This document shows positions 2 to 10,956 of a DNA stretch of 28,033 bases, in pieces. The first letter of the stretch is position 1, and the number at the start of each line of letters is the position of its first letter. The notes under the pieces are model-generated. The model made no database searches and had not been told where the DNA came from. It worked only from the letters and a program-made list of their open reading frames with translations. The position numbers were made by a program, and so were the translations under genes. This DNA is from a virus: positions 1-28,033 of the IMG/VR virus record IMGVR_UViG_3300029922_000256. One strand, given 5' to 3'.

Positions 2-3000
2 CCTTTTCAGGGAAGTTTTTACACTTCTAATGATGGAAACAGTCAAAGTTGGAATTTAGCATTAACAACACTTGTTGCCAATTCATCTTTTTGGAATTCT
101 TTCACATATTTTACAATGGCTAGTGGAAGTACTACTGTATTAGTTTTTAATAATAGTGCGTTTTGGAATAATGCGTCTACTTTTACTGGTGCAAATAGTG
201 CAAATTATCTAGCATTATACACAGCAGTTTCTGCTAATTCTTCAGTTTGGGGCCTTGCTACAAATCCTGGTACTAATCAAGTAGTAACATTTGTACAATT
301 ACAGAGTGCATTTTGGAATAATTCTTGTACATTTACTGATGCAAATTCTGCCAACTACCTAGCACTTTATACTACCGTTTCCGCTAATTCTTCTGTATGG
401 GGAAGTGGTGGTGGTGGTTCAGGAAATGCTTATGTCAATGCATTAGTTAATGCTAATTCTGCATTTTGGAATAATTCTGATACTTTTTCCAACTCAACAT
501 CTGCTAATTATCTGGCTTTATATACAACAGTTTCGGGAAATAGTGCTACATGGGGTGCTGGTGCTAATCCTGCATTACCTGCAGTCATTACGTTTGTAGA
601 AAACAATTCGGCTAATTACTACAGTTTATATACCGTTGTAAGTTCGAATTCTTCAGTTTGGGGTTCTGGGAGTAACCCAGCATTACCAGCGGTTATTACC
701 TTTGTAGAAAACAATTCGGCTAATTATTATTCACTTTATACAGCGGTTAGTGCCAATTCCTCTGTTTGGAGTTCAGGAAGCAATCCCGCTCTTCCTTCAG
801 TAATCACTTTTGTACAAACAAATTCAGCTTATATTTTAAATGAAGTTAATTTAGTAGCATCTAATTCTGCATTCTGGAACAATTCTGATACTTTTAGTAA
901 TTCAACTTCTGCTAATTATTTGGCTTTATATACCGCCGTAAGTTCAAATAGTTCTACTTGGGGTGGTGGAGGTTCAGGAAACTCTTATGTTAATGCACTG
1001 GTTAATGCTAATTCCGCCTTTTGGAACAATGCATCCACATTTACTGACAATAATTCCGCTAATTACTTAGCTTTATATACTACAGTTTCTGGGAACTCTT
1101 CAATATGGGGATTAGCAAGTAACCCTGGTACAAATGCTGTAGTGACCTTTGTAGAGTCGAATTCGGCCTATATATTGAACGAGGTTAACTTAGTAGCATC
1201 TAATTCTGCATTTTGGAATAATTCTGATACTTTTTCCAACTCAACATCTGCTAATTATCTCGCTTTGTATACAACAGTTTCGGGAAATAGTGCTACATGG
1301 GGTGCTGGTGCTAATCCTGCATTACCTGCAGTCATCACGTTTGTAGAAAATAATAGTGCAAATTATTATGCACTTTATACTGCTGTTTCCGCAAATAGTT
1401 CAACATGGGGAGCAGGAGGTGGTTCAGGAAATGCTTATGTTAATGCATTAGTTAATTCTAATTCAGCCTTTTGGAATAATGCATCCACATTTACTGACAA
1501 TAATTCGGCTAATTATCTAGCTTTATATACCACAGTTTCTGGAAACTCCTCAATATGGGGATTAGCAAGTAACCCTGGTACTAATTCAGTAGTTACTTTC
1601 GTACAATCAAATTCCGCATATATTTTAAATGAAATTAATTTAGTTGCAGGAAATTCTGCATTTTGGAATAATGCTTCTACTTTCACTGATAATAATTCGG
1701 CTAATTATCTAGCCTTATATACTGCAGTTAGTGCTAATTCTGCTACATGGAATTCAGGAAGCAATCCCGCCTTACCAAATATAATCACATTAGTTGAAAA
1801 TAACTCCGCTTTTTGGAACAATTCCGATACTTTTAGCAATTCAACTTCTGCTAATTATTTGGCACTTTATACTGCAGTTAGTGCAAATTCTTCCACATGG
1901 GGTTCAGGAAGTAATCCTGCGTTACCTGCGGTCATTACGTTTGTTGAAAATAACAGTGCAAATTATTATAGTTTATATACTGCTGTTAGTGCTAATTCAA
2001 GTACTTGGGGTTCTGGAAGTAACCCCGCATTACCTGCAGTCATTACGTTTGTTGAAAATAATAGTGCGAATTACTACAGTTTATATACATCCGTAAGCAC
2101 AAATTCTGCGTTTTGGAATAATGCATCCACATTTACTGATAATAATTCGGCTAATTATCTAGCTCTTTATACAACAGTTAGTGCTAATTCTTCAGTTTGG
2201 GGACTTGCTAACAATCCTGGTACGAATGGTGTCGTAACATTAGTGCAACAAAATAGTTCTTATTGGAATAATTCTGATACATTTTCTAATTCAACTTCTG
2301 CTAATTACTTGGCATCTTATTCTGTTGTTTCGGCCAATTCTTCTTTCTGGATCAATGCTTCAACTTTTACCGATAATAATTCAGCTAATTATCTAGCTTT
2401 ATATACTGCAGTTTCTGCTAATTCATCTATATGGAATCTTGCAGGGAATTACATAGTAAATGCATTAGTTAATGGAAACTCTGCTCTTTGGAATAGTGCA
2501 AGCACTTTCACGGTACAAAATAGTTCTTTTATATTAAACGAAATTAATTTAGTTGCGGGAAATTCCGCTTTTTGGAATAATTCTGATACATTTTCCAATT
2601 CAATTAGCGCAAATTATCTTGCTCTTTATACTACCGTTTCCGCTAATTCTTCCACATGGGGAAGTGGCGGAGGTTCGGGAAATGCTTATGTTAATGCATT
2701 AGTTAATTCTAATTCAGCCTTTTGGAACAATTCTGATACTTTTAGTAATTCGACTTCTGCCAATTATCTAGCTTTATACACTGCAGTTAGTGCTAATTCT
2801 TCCACATGGGGTGGTGGATCTATTACGATAACAATTTCTTCTGGTAATGGTTTTGCAGGGACATCTTCAGGTGGTTCCAATCCTATATTAACAATTGCTA
2901 CTACTATTACGGGTATAGCTTATGGTAATGGTAGTGCTTTTTCAGCAGCTACACCAAGTCAGGTTGCTACGGGATTAATTGGAAGTCCAGTTACCATAAC

Positions 3001-3373
3001 TGGTACTCCTGGAAGTTCTACTTACTTAAACGGTGCAGGCGCATGGTCTACCGTATCATCATCAACACCTAGATTAACTAACATTTATAATTCAAGTCAA
3101 GTATTATCTGCTATTGATTCCTTGAATATTTTTACCGCTTTAACTGGAGCAACTGCATATCTATTACCAGCATCATCTTATCTTTCTGCTAGTGTAAATT
3201 CTGTAACAGTAAAATTAGGAACACCATCTATGACATTAGTGATAGCACCTTGTGCGACAAATGGTGATACGCTAGAAGGCACAACAAGTACATTTACCTT
3301 CCAAAATAACCCATCCCCTCCATACAATTCACTAACTATTGCAGCAGTATCTGGTGGTTTTTGGTTTACCTAA
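2..3373 (+). CDS. Repeat-rich tail fibre protein (5' end outside window)
   Basis: The frame is open from base 2, so the ATG at 116 is internal and the gene begins upstream; 1123 residues are visible. Most of the visible protein is a repeat with a 14-residue base period: N-S-A/S, an aromatic pair (FW or NY), then TF or LYT and V-S-A. Some units carry an eight-residue Gly/Asn/Pro-containing insert (SNPALP or TNPGTN type) or a GGGSGNAYVNALVN linker. Lys and Arg are almost absent, while Asn, Ser, Ala, Thr, Trp and Tyr dominate. The repeats stop near base 2815, followed by a Gly/Ser/Thr-rich beta region with a phage-fibre-like YLNGAGAWST stretch and a compact C-terminal domain ending in GGFWFT. 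I infer a long, probably trimeric host-binding fibre. Related repeats occur at 10965, 24325 and 26689. The stop overlaps the stop of the convergent gene at 3370. A structural fibre is confident; its position on the virion is not known. Confidence 0.85.
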   Translation, partial: PFQGSFYTSNDGNSQSWNLALTTLVANSSFWNSFTYFTMASGSTTVLVFNNSAFWNNASTFTGANSANYLALYTAVSANSSVWGLATNPGTNQVVTFVQLQSAFWNNSCTFTDANSANYLALYTTVSANSSVWGSGGGGSGNAYVNALVNANSAFWNNSDTFSNSTSANYLALYTTVSGNSATWGAGANPALPAVITFVENNSANYYSLYTVVSSNSSVWGSGSNPALPAVITFVENNSANYYSLYTAVSANSSVWSSGSNPALPSVITFVQTNSAYILNEVNLVASNSAFWNNSDTFSNSTSANYLALYTAVSSNSSTWGGGGSGNSYVNALVNANSAFWNNASTFTDNNSANYLALYTTVSGNSSIWGLASNPGTNAVVTFVESNSAYILNEVNLVASNSAFWNNSDTFSNSTSANYLALYTTVSGNSATWGAGANPALPAVITFVENNSANYYALYTAVSANSSTWGAGGGSGNAYVNALVNSNSAFWNNASTFTDNNSANYLALYTTVSGNSSIWGLASNPGTNSVVTFVQSNSAYILNEINLVAGNSAFWNNASTFTDNNSANYLALYTAVSANSATWNSGSNPALPNIITLVENNSAFWNNSDTFSNSTSANYLALYTAVSANSSTWGSGSNPALPAVITFVENNSANYYSLYTAVSANSSTWGSGSNPALPAVITFVENNSANYYSLYTSVSTNSAFWNNASTFTDNNSANYLALYTTVSANSSVWGLANNPGTNGVVTLVQQNSSYWNNSDTFSNSTSANYLASYSVVSANSSFWINASTFTDNNSANYLALYTAVSANSSIWNLAGNYIVNALVNGNSALWNSASTFTVQNSSFILNEINLVAGNSAFWNNSDTFSNSISANYLALYTTVSANSSTWGSGGGSGNAYVNALVNSNSAFWNNSDTFSNSTSANYLALYTAVSANSSTWGGGSITITISSGNGFAGTSSGGSNPILTIATTITGIAYGNGSAFSAATPSQVATGLIGSPVTITGTPGSSTYLNGAGAWSTVSSSTPRLTNIYNSSQVLSAIDSLNIFTALTGATAYLLPASSYLSASVNSVTVKLGTPSMTLVIAPCATNGDTLEGTTSTFTFQNNPSPPYNSLTIAAVSGGFWFT

Positions 3374-4374: not shown

Positions 4375-5415
4375 ATGGGTGGAAAACTTGTAACACATTA
4401 CGGATTTTCTGAGAAGAGGATTGCGAAAGAAGAATACCTGAAATTGGTGGAAAAGGTTAAGAATGTATTTGATTCTAAACTCGTTCCTCCCAGGAGACAC
4501 CAAGCCATTCCCCATATTAGAAATAAGATTTCTTTTGGAGATTTAGATTATCTTGTTGAAAATTTTGGAGATATTAATTATTATTATTTCCTCAAAGATA
4601 ATTTCAATTCATCTTTTATTCATCACAATGCTGGGGTTTATTCCATCGAGGATTCCGGTTTCCAAATTGATATAATCTTAACTGAACCCAGTTATTACGA
4701 TTTTTCCTTAATGTACCTTTCAAACAACGATATTTCGAATTTGGTTGGTAGATGCTTTCACAAAATGGGGATGTCCTTGGGTCATAGGGGGTTATCCTAT
4801 AGAGTTAGAGAAAGTCTATTCTCAGGTATAGAGAAACAAAAAGATAATCAAATTGATGAAATAATTCTTACTTATAATCCCTATGAAGCCTGGGGGATGT
4901 TGGAATATGATTTGAAAAAATTTAAAGAGGGTTTTAATACATTGGAAGATGCCTTTAAATGGGTTATTGATAACAAATACTTTAATTCAGAAATTTTTGC
5001 TTTTCCGAATCTTAATCATACTAATAGAGTTCGTAATAAAAAAAGAGAAAATTATTGTAAATTCCTAAAATATTTAGAAGGAAAGACTTTTAAGGATTAT
5101 CCTTATGAAGAAGATAAAACTAAATATCTTCCATTTATTTCCGAACACTTTCCAAATTTTCCCATTGAATTAGAAAAATCCAAACTAAAATATTTTCACA
5201 ATAAGGAATTACAATCTAAGTTTAATGGTAATTTAGTAATGGAATGGTTAAATTTAACTGTTGGTGAAGAATTGGGAATGATTATCGGAAGTTTCAAGAA
5301 AAAATTCGGAAGTAAATCGGAAGATTTTGGGAAGTTTCTGGAGATTAATTCTCCAGAAGAAATTAAAAAAGGATTCTTGACGTGGTATAATTTTGAATAT
5401 AAACTGAAAAAATGA
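4375..5415 (+). CDS. Pol X-like nucleotidyltransferase (putative RNA 3'-end repair)
   Basis: A 346-residue protein with the hallmarks of the DNA polymerase beta-type nucleotidyltransferase fold: FGDLDYLV at about residues 54-61 supplies two carboxylates (D56, D58), FQIDIIL at 96-102 supplies the third (D99), and NDISNLVGR...MG...GHRGLSYRVR at 118-145 corresponds to the conserved segment after the catalytic strand. I recall similar proteins annotated simply as nucleotidyltransferases in large phages and giant viruses; the substrate is not established. The stop overlaps the PseT start as ATGA, so translation is probably coupled, and RNA ligases follow, which suggests RNA (perhaps tRNA 3'-end) repair. 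I chose the ATG at 4375. A TTG at 4324, four bases from an AGAGG, would add 17 residues and cannot be excluded. Family assignment is reasonably firm, function is inferred. Confidence 0.7.
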   Translation: MGGKLVTHYGFSEKRIAKEEYLKLVEKVKNVFDSKLVPPRRHQAIPHIRNKISFGDLDYLVENFGDINYYYFLKDNFNSSFIHHNAGVYSIEDSGFQIDIILTEPSYYDFSLMYLSNNDISNLVGRCFHKMGMSLGHRGLSYRVRESLFSGIEKQKDNQIDEIILTYNPYEAWGMLEYDLKKFKEGFNTLEDAFKWVIDNKYFNSEIFAFPNLNHTNRVRNKKRENYCKFLKYLEGKTFKDYPYEEDKTKYLPFISEHFPNFPIELEKSKLKYFHNKELQSKFNGNLVMEWLNLTVGEELGMIIGSFKKKFGSKSEDFGKFLEINSPEEIKKGFLTWYNFEYKLKK

Positions 5416-6320
5416 ACAACAAAAACAAAATTGTTAAGGTATTGCGAGGACTTCCCGCAAGTGGGAAAAGTACTATTGCGAAGAATTTGATTCAAGATCC
5501 ATCATGGATAAGGGTGAATAATGATGATTTTCGAAGCATGATGGGGAATGATAGAAAATGGAATAAGAAAGATGAAGAATTAATTACTAAAGTTAGAGAA
5601 TCAATTATTCACGAAGCATTATTGGCAGGATATAATATTGTTCTGGATAATTTAAATTTGCATCCAAAACACATTGAATGGATTGAAAATAAATTGAAAC
5701 AATTTCCAGAATATTCTTTAGAAGTTATAGATGTTCTGTGTGAACCAGAAATCTGCTCAATTCGAGATTCCCAACGTGAAAAACCAGTTGGTGATAAGGT
5801 CATTTTTGATTGGTATCATAAGTATCTGGAGACGAAGGTTCCTAAGAGAGTACAATCACTGGAACTTCAAAAATGCTTAGTATTTGACATAGACGGAACT
5901 TTAGCAAACCACGAAGGAGTACGATCATGTTATGATTATACAAAAGTATTGGAAGATAAGCCTATTCAATGGGTATTGGATATTCTTAATAAATTCAGGG
6001 ATACTCATAAAATCATATTCGCCAGCGGAAGAAAGAATGTTTGCGAATCTGATACCAGAAAATGGATTGATAAGTATATTTGGAATCCTAATGATGAAGT
6101 TTGCGTTTCTATCTATACTCCTCTCACTGATTACGAATTATATATGCGTAAAGCAGATGATGAAAGGAAGGATTATATCATTAAAAAGGAAATTTATGAA
6201 GAGTTTATCCTGCCACGCTACCACGTCGATTTTGTAGTAGATGATAGGTTGCAAGTTGTTAGAATGTTGCGAAATTCTTTATCTTTAAATGTTCTACAGG
6301 TCGATGACGGATTGTTCTAA
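5412..6320 (+). CDS. pseT: Polynucleotide 5'-kinase / 3'-phosphatase (T4 PseT-like)
   Basis: Bifunctional RNA/DNA end-healing enzyme: the N-terminal kinase phosphorylates 5'-OH ends and the C-terminal HAD phosphatase removes 3'-phosphate or 2',3'-cyclic phosphate. At 302 residues it matches T4 PseT (301). The P-loop GLPASGKST is at 13-21 (K19, S20), NNDDFR at 36-41 matches the kinase acid/base region, and R118 and R122 lie in a lid-like RDSQREKP segment. The phosphatase motif VFDIDGTLA at 158-166 gives D159 and D161; FASGRKN and VDDR later complete the HAD set. It overlaps the nucleotidyltransferase by four bases and precedes an Rnl1-type ligase, the T4 pairing that repairs tRNA cleaved by anticodon nucleases such as PrrC. 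All key residues appear intact. Confidence 0.95.
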   Translation: MNNKNKIVKVLRGLPASGKSTIAKNLIQDPSWIRVNNDDFRSMMGNDRKWNKKDEELITKVRESIIHEALLAGYNIVLDNLNLHPKHIEWIENKLKQFPEYSLEVIDVLCEPEICSIRDSQREKPVGDKVIFDWYHKYLETKVPKRVQSLELQKCLVFDIDGTLANHEGVRSCYDYTKVLEDKPIQWVLDILNKFRDTHKIIFASGRKNVCESDTRKWIDKYIWNPNDEVCVSIYTPLTDYELYMRKADDERKDYIIKKEIYEEFILPRYHVDFVVDDRLQVVRMLRNSLSLNVLQVDDGLF

Positions 6321-6337
6321 ATTAATTCGATGTGATT

Positions 6338-6628
6338 ATGATTAATGGTGAAGCTAAAGTTTTAGGAATATCTCCCTATGGAAATTATTCGTGGGGATGT
6401 GTCACAATAAAAGAAAAACCTTTAGAATATTTAATCGGGACAGTATACGGTAAAAAATCAAGTTCTATTTTTTCTGATATCACATATTTTTCAACTATTG
6501 TCGGTTTAGAATTGACAAATATTTCTTACAGGCATACATTTTTTAAAACATATATGGATTGGAAAGTTGTAGGTACTAAAAATAAAATTGAAGAGTTTAA
6601 AAGTAGATTGGATGAATATGTTCAATAA
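6338..6628 (+). CDS. Small hypothetical protein between PseT and RNA ligase
   Basis: A 96-residue protein that I do not recognise, beginning MINGEAKVLGISPYGNYSWG. It is rich in aromatic residues, predicted mostly beta in the first 60 residues, with a Lys/Glu-rich helical C-terminus. A GTG six bases upstream (6332) is an alternative start; no clear Shine-Dalgarno sequence lies before either. It overlaps the downstream ligase start by about 11 bases, so it is likely translated with the RNA-repair enzymes and might be an accessory factor, but that rests only on position. Confidence 0.6.
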   Translation: MINGEAKVLGISPYGNYSWGCVTIKEKPLEYLIGTVYGKKSSSIFSDITYFSTIVGLELTNISYRHTFFKTYMDWKVVGTKNKIEEFKSRLDEYVQ

Positions 6629-7715
6629 AGAATTAGTATTTTCAGAAAAATTCCAAGAAGATTTTACAGTTAAACCTGTTAATATTCATGGGGAAGATTG
6701 TGTCTTGGTATATCCGAAAGCATTTCCAAAATGGAACGAAGAGAATAAGATTTATAGATCTTCTATTTGGAGATTATCGGATGGTAAACCTATCAGCTTA
6801 TCCTATAAAAAATTCTGTAATTGGGGGGAAGCTCCAGAATTTGAAACACCAGATTTCAAGAATAAAATAGAATTTATTCAAAAAATAGACGGGTCATGTT
6901 TGATCTCAAGCAAATTTAATGGTAATGTCATACATAGAACCCGTCAAACTACCAATGCATTCGATATGGCTAATGGTTCAGAATTACCACAACTATTACA
7001 ACAATATTCAAAAGTATTTGATAATGATTTAATCAATTCTGGAAATTTTACTATTTTAACAGAATGGTATTCTCCCCAGAATGTTATTGTTTTAAGAGAA
7101 GCTACTGAACCTAAACTGTGGTTAACTGGTATCGTCGTTCATTCCGACTATTCATATCTATCCCAAGACAAACTGGATGAATTAGCATTAGAATGGGGAA
7201 TTGAACGTCCCAAAAGATACAATTTCAATACATTCGAAGAAATGGAACAAGCAGTTTCTCAATTTCAAACTTGTGAAGGAATTGTAGCATACTTTAATAA
7301 TAATCAAATACTTAAGAAAATTAAAGCGATTCGATATTTGTACTTACATAAGATTAAATCGAATCTAAACACACAAGAAGCAATATTAGATCTTTTTCTA
7401 AGTAGTAATTGCGAAACATATTCTGATTTTGAATACAAAATAACTACAGATTTTGATTATGAAGTTTTTGTTCAGATTCGATCTGAAATTTCCAAGATCT
7501 TCGATGCTAAAAAAGAAGTCGAAAATATTATCCAAGGGATGGTAGATTTTGTGAGAGACTTGCAAGGATTAACTAGAAAAGAACAAGCATTAAAAATTGT
7601 AGAAGCATATTCTTCAAATAAACAGACCAGTTTCGTGTTCACGCTTTTGGATAAAAAACCCATTTCAACAGAAATGTTAAAAAAACTCTATTGTCAAATC
7701 ATGAAAATTAATTGA
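6618..7715 (+). CDS. rnlA: RNA ligase 1 family (T4 Rnl1-like)
   Basis: ATP-dependent RNA ligase that seals 5'-phosphate/3'-OH RNA ends through a lysyl-AMP intermediate. About 365 residues from this start, compared with 374 for T4 Rnl1. The nucleotidyl motif I is KIDGS, at K89 counted from this ATG; the preceding YRSSIWRLSDGKPIS segment matches the family's RG-type N-terminal strand and loop. ILTEWYSP fits motif III, CEGIVAYF fits motif IV (EGxVA) and LKKIKAIRYLYLHKIKS fits motif V with its downstream tyrosine/histidine. The C-terminal ~110 residues are helical and may be the tRNA-recognition domain seen in Rnl1. Possible starts are TTG 6588, ATG 6612 and ATG 6618; I prefer 6618 because GGA lies five bases upstream. 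Together with PseT it forms the classical tRNA-repair pair. Confidence 0.88.
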   Translation: MFNKELVFSEKFQEDFTVKPVNIHGEDCVLVYPKAFPKWNEENKIYRSSIWRLSDGKPISLSYKKFCNWGEAPEFETPDFKNKIEFIQKIDGSCLISSKFNGNVIHRTRQTTNAFDMANGSELPQLLQQYSKVFDNDLINSGNFTILTEWYSPQNVIVLREATEPKLWLTGIVVHSDYSYLSQDKLDELALEWGIERPKRYNFNTFEEMEQAVSQFQTCEGIVAYFNNNQILKKIKAIRYLYLHKIKSNLNTQEAILDLFLSSNCETYSDFEYKITTDFDYEVFVQIRSEISKIFDAKKEVENIIQGMVDFVRDLQGLTRKEQALKIVEAYSSNKQTSFVFTLLDKKPISTEMLKKLYCQIMKIN

Positions 7716-7739
7716 CAAAATAGGAAAATATTTTACAAT
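7712..7739 (+). promoter_or_regulatory. Sigma70-type promoter for the Rnl5 ligase
   Basis: TTGACA (7712-7717) and TACAAT (7734-7739) are separated by 16 bases. The -35 overlaps the end of the Rnl1 gene, and only eight bases separate the -10 from the ATG at 7748, so the transcript would have almost no 5' leader. The box quality is high even for an A/T-rich genome, but no expression data exist here. Confidence 0.55.
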
Positions 7740-7747
7740 GTGCTTAT

Positions 7748-8815
7748 ATGGAGAGAAAACTAGCATCAATTCGTAAAGTTACAAAGATTGAATCCATTCC
7801 CGAAGCCGATCTGGTTGAATGTGTTTCACTAGACGGGTGGGATCTGGTATCGAAAAAGGGTGATTTTCAAGATGGAGACTTAGGAGTATATTTTGAAATT
7901 GATTCAATTTTACCTAGAAAACCATGGAATGAATTTCTTTTTAAAACAGTTTCGGAAACTAATTACAGATTAAAAACAAAAAAATTACGGGGAGTTATTT
8001 CACAAGGATTGCTTATCCCCATAAAGAATATTACTGAAATTACAAATCCAATTTTTGAAGGTGATGATTTGACTGAATTTTTAGGTATTACTAAATATGA
8101 ACCACAAATTCCAGCACAATTACAAGGTATTGTTAAAGGTAATTTCCCAGAAGGTATAAGAAAATCAGATGAAGAACGTTGGCAAAATATTCCAAAAATT
8201 TGGGATGAATTATTACTTTGCGAGGAAATTGTTGGTCGTAGAAAGGAAGATGGAAGTTCAGCAACTTTTTATCTGATTGATGATGTATTTGGTGTATGTT
8301 CCAGAAATCTCGATCTAAAAGAATCTGAAAATAATACCTTTTGGAAGGTTGCTAGAAAATTAGATATTGAGAATAAACTCAGAATGTATTTGGAATATAT
8401 TAATAGTATATTAAATCAAACAGAAAATCCAATAATAATTAAAAATATTTATTGTCAGGGGGAATTGTTAGGGCCGGGTATTCAGAAGAATCTTTTGGGT
8501 TTAGCAGAAAATACTGTGCATTTATTTGATTTTGGATATCCCAATACAAATCTCAAAAATACTGATTATGATTTAATTCATTTTTGTGATATGACAAACT
8601 TAGATATTTGTCCAGAAGTCTTCCGAGGAAAAATTGGAGATAAATTTAAATCTTTAGAAGAAATGTCAGAATTTTCAGATACAATTACATATCCAAATGG
8701 AAAAACTGCCGAAGGAATTGTGTGGAGACGATTAGATTGGGGTTATTCACCATATCTAAAATCTAGATTATCTTTCAAAACTATTTCTAACAAATATCTA
8801 TTGAAAAATGAATAA
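7748..8815 (+). CDS. RNA ligase, Rnl5 / DRB0094 family
   Basis: A second, unrelated ATP-dependent RNA ligase. The 355 residues follow the Deinococcus RNA ligase plan (about 342 residues): an N-terminal OB-fold module (ERKLASIRKVTKIESIPEAD, then VISQGLLIPI near 83-92), then the adenylyltransferase domain with motif I GRRKEDGS and nucleophile K166. Later parts are CQGELLGPGIQ (motif III region), AEGIVWRR (motif IV) and LSFKTISNKYLL (motif V). Deinococcus-type Rnl is known to seal 3'-OH RNA to 5'-phosphate ends, with a preference for nicked duplexes bridged by RNA 3'-OH strands. A strong promoter directly upstream suggests partly independent expression from PseT and Rnl1. Two RNA ligases with different substrate preferences in one cluster point to repair of more than one type of RNA damage. 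Confidence 0.9.
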   Translation: MERKLASIRKVTKIESIPEADLVECVSLDGWDLVSKKGDFQDGDLGVYFEIDSILPRKPWNEFLFKTVSETNYRLKTKKLRGVISQGLLIPIKNITEITNPIFEGDDLTEFLGITKYEPQIPAQLQGIVKGNFPEGIRKSDEERWQNIPKIWDELLLCEEIVGRRKEDGSSATFYLIDDVFGVCSRNLDLKESENNTFWKVARKLDIENKLRMYLEYINSILNQTENPIIIKNIYCQGELLGPGIQKNLLGLAENTVHLFDFGYPNTNLKNTDYDLIHFCDMTNLDICPEVFRGKIGDKFKSLEEMSEFSDTITYPNGKTAEGIVWRRLDWGYSPYLKSRLSFKTISNKYLLKNE

Positions 8816-10518: not shown

Positions 10519-10956
10519 TTATATCCTATTGGACAAAATCCATTTGTTTAATTTTTGATCGTAATAAATTGATGGTCCTTTTCTACAAATCATCTTAGTT
10601 TTGCCTTTTTCTGGTTGAACTTTAAAATTTTGGATAATGTATTCATATTCGGAAGGATTCAAAACAATCGCCGATTTAGACTTATTTTCGATAAGGTTTT
10701 CTACACGAGTTTTTTTAGATGCATCAACTGTTTGGGATTTAGCAATTGTTCGAACGTGTTTTCTAAATCCTTTTGAAGTAATTCCGAAGTCTCTTATGAT
10801 AGGTTTTTTATGTCTTGGTCCTCTTAATTTTTTAGTAGAAGTTAGGGGGATATTTAGATCAGCAGCAACATCATTTAAAGGAGGGATATTACTGTAACCA
10901 GTATTCCAAGTAGTTTCCTTTAAAATTAGATTTAAAAGAGTGTTGAACTTATCCAT
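10519..10956 (-). CDS. Hypothetical basic protein in virion gene cluster (145 aa)
   Basis: I start this gene at the ATG at 10954-10956, which gives MDKFNTLLNLILKETTW; the longer frame needs a TTG inside the upstream mini-fibre gene. It begins eight bases after that gene's stop. The middle is strongly basic (KKLRGPRHKKPIIRDFG, then SKGFRKHVRTIAKS), and the C-terminus is a beta-rich segment with SIYYDQKLNKWILS. No family recognised. The location between mini-fibre and neck genes suggests a virion or assembly protein; basic composition could mean DNA contact. Confidence 0.6.
   Translation of the reverse strand: MDKFNTLLNLILKETTWNTGYSNIPPLNDVAADLNIPLTSTKKLRGPRHKKPIIRDFGITSKGFRKHVRTIAKSQTVDASKKTRVENLIENKSKSAIVLNPSEYEYIIQNFKVQPEKGKTKMICRKGPSIYYDQKLNKWILSNRI

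Follow-up and report, generated by a model that had tools for sequence, protein, structure and literature searches.

A nucleotidyltransferase (NTase) gene of the phage record IMGVR_UViG_3300029922_000256 (positions 4375-5415, + strand) is followed directly by genes for a T4 PseT-type 5'-kinase/3'-phosphatase (PNKP) and two RNA ligases, Rnl1 and Rnl5, and the question raised by this locus is what such an enzyme contributes to the repair of RNA. The window, meaning the whole stretch of DNA analysed, is a 28-kb IMG/VR fragment, and none of 50,697 phage records is closely related to it. The four genes stand side by side, all rightward with open and intact reading frames, as the initial annotation had described, and the stop codon of the NTase gene overlaps the start codon of the PNKP gene as ATGA. 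The answer favored here, with a probability of about 0.55, is that the NTase is a second nucleotide-restoring enzyme of RNA repair, independent of the phage NTase RlaP, and that the whole block serves the phage as a cassette for repairing RNA, mainly tRNA. It is based on the catalytic residues that are intact family-wide, the palm-thumb fold of family X DNA polymerases (pol X), the ATGA coupling to PNKP, the significant clustering with Thg1 and CCA-adding enzyme genes, and the direct repair-gene neighbors in other lineages.

The NTase consists of 346 amino acids and is similar to phrog_24943 (8e-40). Its structure was predicted with AlphaFold with a predicted local distance difference test (pLDDT) score of 95. 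The palm and thumb (residues 4-194) match pol X with a Foldseek e-value of 2e-6, and the comparison with DNA polymerase lambda (pol lambda) gave a Z score of 12.4 and a root-mean-square deviation of 2.8 over 174 residues. All the top fold matches are pol X, and the profile search against PDB detected pol lambda and pol beta with e-values of about 1e-4. In the hidden Markov model (HMM) alignment to pol X, the catalytic Asp residues correspond to D56, D58, and D99, the Tyr of the ribose steric gate to Y114, and the Asn in contact with the incoming nucleotide to N122, as these positions are known from pol beta and pol lambda. The model and the alignment show the NTase to be a divergent pol X-fold enzyme with a palm, a thumb, and three catalytic Asp residues, in agreement with the pol X-like identity and the intact carboxylates recognized in the initial annotation.

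The NTase lacks the fingers and the 8-kDa lyase domain of pol X, and because the palm-thumb match begins at model residue 4, there is no space for an N-terminal domain. Some viral pol X proteins are likewise devoid of the fingers or the lyase domain. The GS triphosphate-binding motif is lost in the NTase family, and the residues aligned to it are variable. The C-terminal domain (about residues 195-346) is helical and confidently folded in the model, and Foldseek revealed no significant match to it. The C-terminal tail could be superposed on the tail of class II CCA-adding enzymes with a Z score of 5.2 over 50 residues, which is below significance. The two tails have a similar motif (NG..V...TGL.GKELG, or more generally NG...G..GKE(L/I)G), and this similarity, though the best that the C-terminal domain gave, is a weak lead.

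A scan of IMG/VR with the single NTase sequence returned zero matches, and an alignment was required as the query. With a starting alignment from ten phage records, 150 relatives were collected from IMG/VR, 74 of which remained after dereplication, and a genome scan revealed 23 loci with homologues in bacterial genomes. A relative is also present in Stenotrophomonas phage Mendera. No Pfam model covers this family; seven members touch DNA_pol_B_palm weakly. K51, G55, D56, Q97, and D99 are invariant in all 74 aligned proteins and D58 is conserved in 73, while R220, K223, and R224 are also invariant across the alignment. The family further has an RxRxxKRxxY motif. The active-site motif of the family can be written as K..FGDxD...QxD, and its catalytic residues D56/D58 and D99 are present in the window protein. 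Although the GS motif of pol X is lost, Met-Gly-Gly at residues 1-3 (window positions 4375-4383) is kept in 68 members, and this shared N-terminus supports the ATG at 4375 as the start codon.

The initial annotation had proposed a structural comparison with CCA-adding enzymes and pol X, and the comparison assigned the NTase to the pol X fold, neither to the small-molecule type nor to the CCA-adding enzymes. An antibiotic-type enzyme is rejected by both fold and profile. Assignment to the CCA-adding enzymes is also rejected, with no PF01743 head domain in the window and hhalign probabilities below 1% with phage CCA-adding enzymes. The third candidate, RlaP (PF10127), is a pol-beta superfamily NTase of large phages whose gene has RNA ligase, Thg1, and CCA genes in its vicinity (PMC7824862), and in these respects it is similar to the NTase of the window. 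PF10127 has no match in the window, however, and hhalign with phage RlaPs gave a probability of 0.1%. The motif of RlaP, GS-x-(A)-YG-T...SDxD (GSxAYGT...SD(T/S)D), is missing, whereas the window family has K..FGDxD...QxD without GS and a pol X palm-thumb. A nearby RNA ligase, by which RlaP is also defined, is present in the window, while family-wide the ligases are found near the NTase at chance level; the definition applied here is the one given in citing papers and Pfam. RlaP was found in just one of 50 NTase-carrying records.

The three other enzymes of the block are ordinary phage RNA-repair enzymes. PNKP (302 amino acids; 5412-6320, + strand) is similar to PF25109 (HAD_PNKP, 8e-39), phrog_505 (2e-71), and AAA_33 (5e-16). 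It has the T4-type architecture, in which an N-terminal P-loop kinase with GLPASGKST is followed by a C-terminal HAD phosphatase with DIDGT, and neither domain is damaged. It also matches Pnkp1 (4xrp, 1e-28) and T4 Pnk (1ltq, 3e-20). The T4 Rnl1-family RNA ligase starts at 6612 or 6618 and ends at 7715 (+ strand). It passes the PF09511 cut-off (55.7 bits against 28.3; 8e-15) and is similar to phrog_562 (7e-30), but it is far below the cut-off of the T4 RnlA equivalog TIGR02308 (50.2 bits against 242) and is a divergent member. The second ligase (7748-8815, + strand) is an Rnl5 of the DRB0094/Naegleria type. It scores above the TIGR02306 equivalog cut-off (162.4 bits against 151), carries the N-terminal OB module PF21189 (4e-28, 98 bits), and matches the Naegleria RNA ligase NgrRnl (5cot, 1e-46). 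The complete kinase-phosphatase and the two ligases of different families with their nucleotidyl lysines in KIDGS (Rnl1) and KEDGS (Rnl5) were thus read correctly in the initial annotation. Of the phage records, 2005 carry PNKP and 332 carry Rnl5, but the NTase was found in 27, which makes it the rare part of the block.

The genes accompanying the NTase were analyzed in its relatives. Among the 50 NTase-carrying records, an RNA ligase (PF09414) is encoded in 34, Rnl1 in 28, a CCA-adding enzyme in 18, Thg1 in 16, and PNKP in 12. Distances from the NTase to repair genes were compared with uniform placement, the window being left out. Eight of 25 records have Thg1 or a CCA gene no more than 6 kb from the NTase, where uniform placement predicts 1.9 (p about 0.001); for repair genes of any kind and a limit of 10 kb, the count is 22 of 42 records, with 9.6 expected. 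The thymidylate synthase gene ThyA, used as a placebo, did not cluster with the NTase. Direct contacts were observed in several loci. The NTase and CCA genes are 21 bp apart in L001; a CCA gene, the NTase, and Thg1 follow each other with spacings of 28 and 26 bp in L009; and a CCA gene lies about 0.4 kb upstream in L047. In L056, L058, and L077, the bacterial RNA-repair genes Hen1 and Pnkp are directly downstream of the NTase in this order, whereas the window has no Hen1. The order Rnl1-PNKP-NTase was found in L079. In a cyanobacterial metagenome-assembled genome (L104, 4431-10302), RlaP, the NTase, an AAA_33 kinase, Thg1, and Rnl5 are encoded in a row, so that RlaP and a window-type NTase adjoin each other, and a second RlaP-like gene is located upstream. 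This operon is a single example, as the NTase is present in just 4 of 386 genomes of the phylum. An HAD-like open reading frame (ORF) is seen on the opposite strand of the same locus (10551-10892). The gene context argues well for a role of the NTase in RNA-end repair.

Several observations weigh against this role. Conserved adjacency to PseT or Rnl genes, which the initial annotation had put forward as a check, did not appear: PNKP or a ligase is within 6 kb of the NTase in 5 of the 37 other NTase records that carry such genes, against 4.4 expected, which is at chance level, and the adjacency of Rnl5 is not above chance either. The idea that the NTase belongs to an RNA-repair response is thus retained through its proximity to Thg1 and CCA genes and some direct repair-gene neighbors, and not through PseT or Rnl. 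The clustering statistics themselves are measured against uniform placement, which ignores that early genes cluster and that phage genomes are divided into functional zones. PNKP and the NTase of L079 have a terminator-like hairpin between them, so the co-transcription of the two genes is doubtful. Many of the homologues in bacteria (Massilia, Achromobacter) are solitary genes, and the likeness of the NTase tail to CCA-enzyme tails was detected by neither Pfam nor hhalign. Finally, the Tyr at the pol beta/lambda ribose steric gate (Y114) is retained in 68 of 74 NTases, and the steric-gate Tyr in pol X favors deoxynucleotides.

The main competing explanation is that the NTase is a minimal family X DNA polymerase for short gaps in the DNA of the phage, acting in base-excision repair or end joining, with PNKP healing DNA ends too and the ligases being separate RNA-repair genes that lie close by chance. 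Pol lambda, pol beta, and PolX account for all the best matches by structure and by HMM, N122 is retained together with Y114, and some database records label the NTase as DNA polymerase. Such an enzyme would nevertheless work in a block without a DNA ligase, an apurinic/apyrimidinic endonuclease, or a lyase domain, and without the GS triphosphate motif, and its neighbors elsewhere are the tRNA/RNA enzymes Thg1, CCA, Hen1-Pnkp, and RlaP. A DNA polymerase is considered unlikely, if less so than the remaining alternatives. A still less probable explanation is that the NTase maintains the 3' end of tRNA (CCA or the discriminator region) apart from the sealing of breaks, against tail-clipping nucleases such as Cas12a3. 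The cleavage of tRNA tails by Cas12a3 is a real defence (PMC12851939), CCA genes adjoin the NTase in the three loci above, and the tails of the two enzymes resemble each other weakly; however, the 18 NTase records that also carry a CCA-adding enzyme would make this role redundant there, and in the window the NTase gene is linked with PNKP and ligase genes rather than with a CCA gene. Least probable is that the NTase has an unrelated function and came to lie in this dense early region by chance: the chance-level proximity of PNKP and ligases across phages and the stand-alone chromosomal homologues fit it, but the Thg1/CCA clustering and the repeated repair-gene contacts in unrelated lineages, including the cellular operon with RlaP, do not.

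As an RNA-repair cassette, the block would act as follows. By homology, PNKP heals the broken ends by removing the 3' phosphate and adding the 5' phosphate. The fold, the intact active site, and the gene context suggest that the NTase would probably then add one or a few nucleotides to the healed 3'-OH ahead of sealing, and that this addition would replace residues lost to excising host nucleases, so that ligation restores full-length RNA. The sealing is performed by Rnl1 and Rnl5, again by homology. Breaks in loops are the substrate of Rnl1, and those in which a duplex holds the ends together are sealed by ligases of the Rnl5 type. In the preferred form of this scheme, the NTase may fill gaps in RNA stems on a template and leave a nick for Rnl5, with Rnl1 serving loop breaks. 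Templated filling is favored because the pol X thumb grips a duplex primer-template, and it fits the proximity of the NTase to Thg1, an enzyme that extends RNA in the reverse direction. The NTase could in this form be a hitherto undescribed pol X-derived RNA polymerase that fills tRNA-stem gaps 5'-to-3' on the template of the intact strand, as the counterpart of the 3'-to-5' Thg1; this specific form is tentative, at roughly one chance in four. If true, it would let phages undo excision-type tRNA damage beyond ordinary PNKP-Rnl1 repair.

The T4 PseT/Pnkp-Rnl1 system of tRNA repair is similar to the block in having PNKP and Rnl1 adjacent on one strand with intact active sites, whereas T4 has no such NTase, and the window has a divergent Rnl1 and a second, Rnl5-type ligase. 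Compared with family X DNA polymerases, including bacterial PolX, the NTase shares the palm-thumb, the Asp triad, the steric-gate Tyr, and the nucleotide-contact Asn, and is distinguished by the absent domains and GS motif, its own C-terminal helical domain, and its RNA-repair gene context. A pol-beta NTase associated with RFH/RtcB is also non-RlaP with a proposed RNA-repair role (PMC6514570), but it is tied to the RtcB/RFH system.

RloC, and possibly other nucleases, removes nucleotides from tRNA, and this lesion is thought to defy the healing-and-sealing repair of phages (PMC2610378). According to the proposal of Iyer et al. 2021 (PMC7824862), which cites Burroughs and Aravind 2016, RlaP puts back missing RNA nucleotides in phages ahead of ligation, and the lesion made by RloC is among those that it would mend. 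The general idea of nucleotide restoration is thus already published, and the novelty assumed in the initial annotation was overstated in this respect; what is new is a nucleotide-restoring candidate NTase distinct from RlaP. The family and its gene context appear to be undescribed in the open-access literature. If the proposed function is true, nucleotide restoration arose two or more times, in different branches of the pol-beta superfamily. A distinct enzyme of this kind, rare but widespread, and connected with PNKP, ligases, Thg1, and CCA enzymes, would make the question of RloC-lesion repair directly testable, and the NTase might serve as an RNA-end tool.

Other neighbors of the NTase relatives were also recognized. 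A family of proteins of about 300 amino acids (L022:8887-9876 and relatives), with no Pfam match above the cut-off, occupies the next gene position (+1) after the NTase in 7 loci, is encoded close to it in 9, and is a candidate functional partner. Calcineurin-like phosphoesterases are the commonest proteins within three genes of the NTase relatives (10 of 149 proteins; 7 of 138 farther away), and perhaps supply 3'-phosphatase activity. The near/far comparison of Pfam domains among the neighbors (8 kb) was uninformative, with ligases and Thg1 in the far set too. The chromosomal NTases of Massilia (L109, L110, L112, L114, and L115) have no nearby repair genes, and several adjoin a cytidylyltransferase-like gene (PF01467), which suggests a cellular role of their own.

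Within the block, a small ORF of 96-98 amino acids (6332-6628, + strand) lies between PNKP and Rnl1, with no Pfam or PHROG match and no relative among the fetched loci. The promoter assigned to Rnl5 in the initial annotation corresponds to the promoter-like sequence TTGACA-16-TACAAT (7712-7739, + strand). It is the best of 39 consensus matches in the region, while shuffled sequences contain 33.7 +/- 5.7 such sites and the predicted transcription start is approximately at the Rnl5 start codon; the promoter is therefore unproven. Most inspected genes of the window (for example, those starting at 4375, 5412, 7748, 12625, and 14458) have no clear Shine-Dalgarno sequence, and the host may be Bacteroidota-like with leaderless or A-rich starts. 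The genes for a portal, a T4-like late sigma factor, and a sheath stabiliser identify the source as a contractile-tailed phage. A protein of 1085 amino acids (116-3373, + strand) contains diverged repeats rich in NNSAFWNNASTFTDNNSANYLALYTxVSANSS, with tandem units of 108 nt and longer, and is likely to be tail-fibre or adhesin-like.

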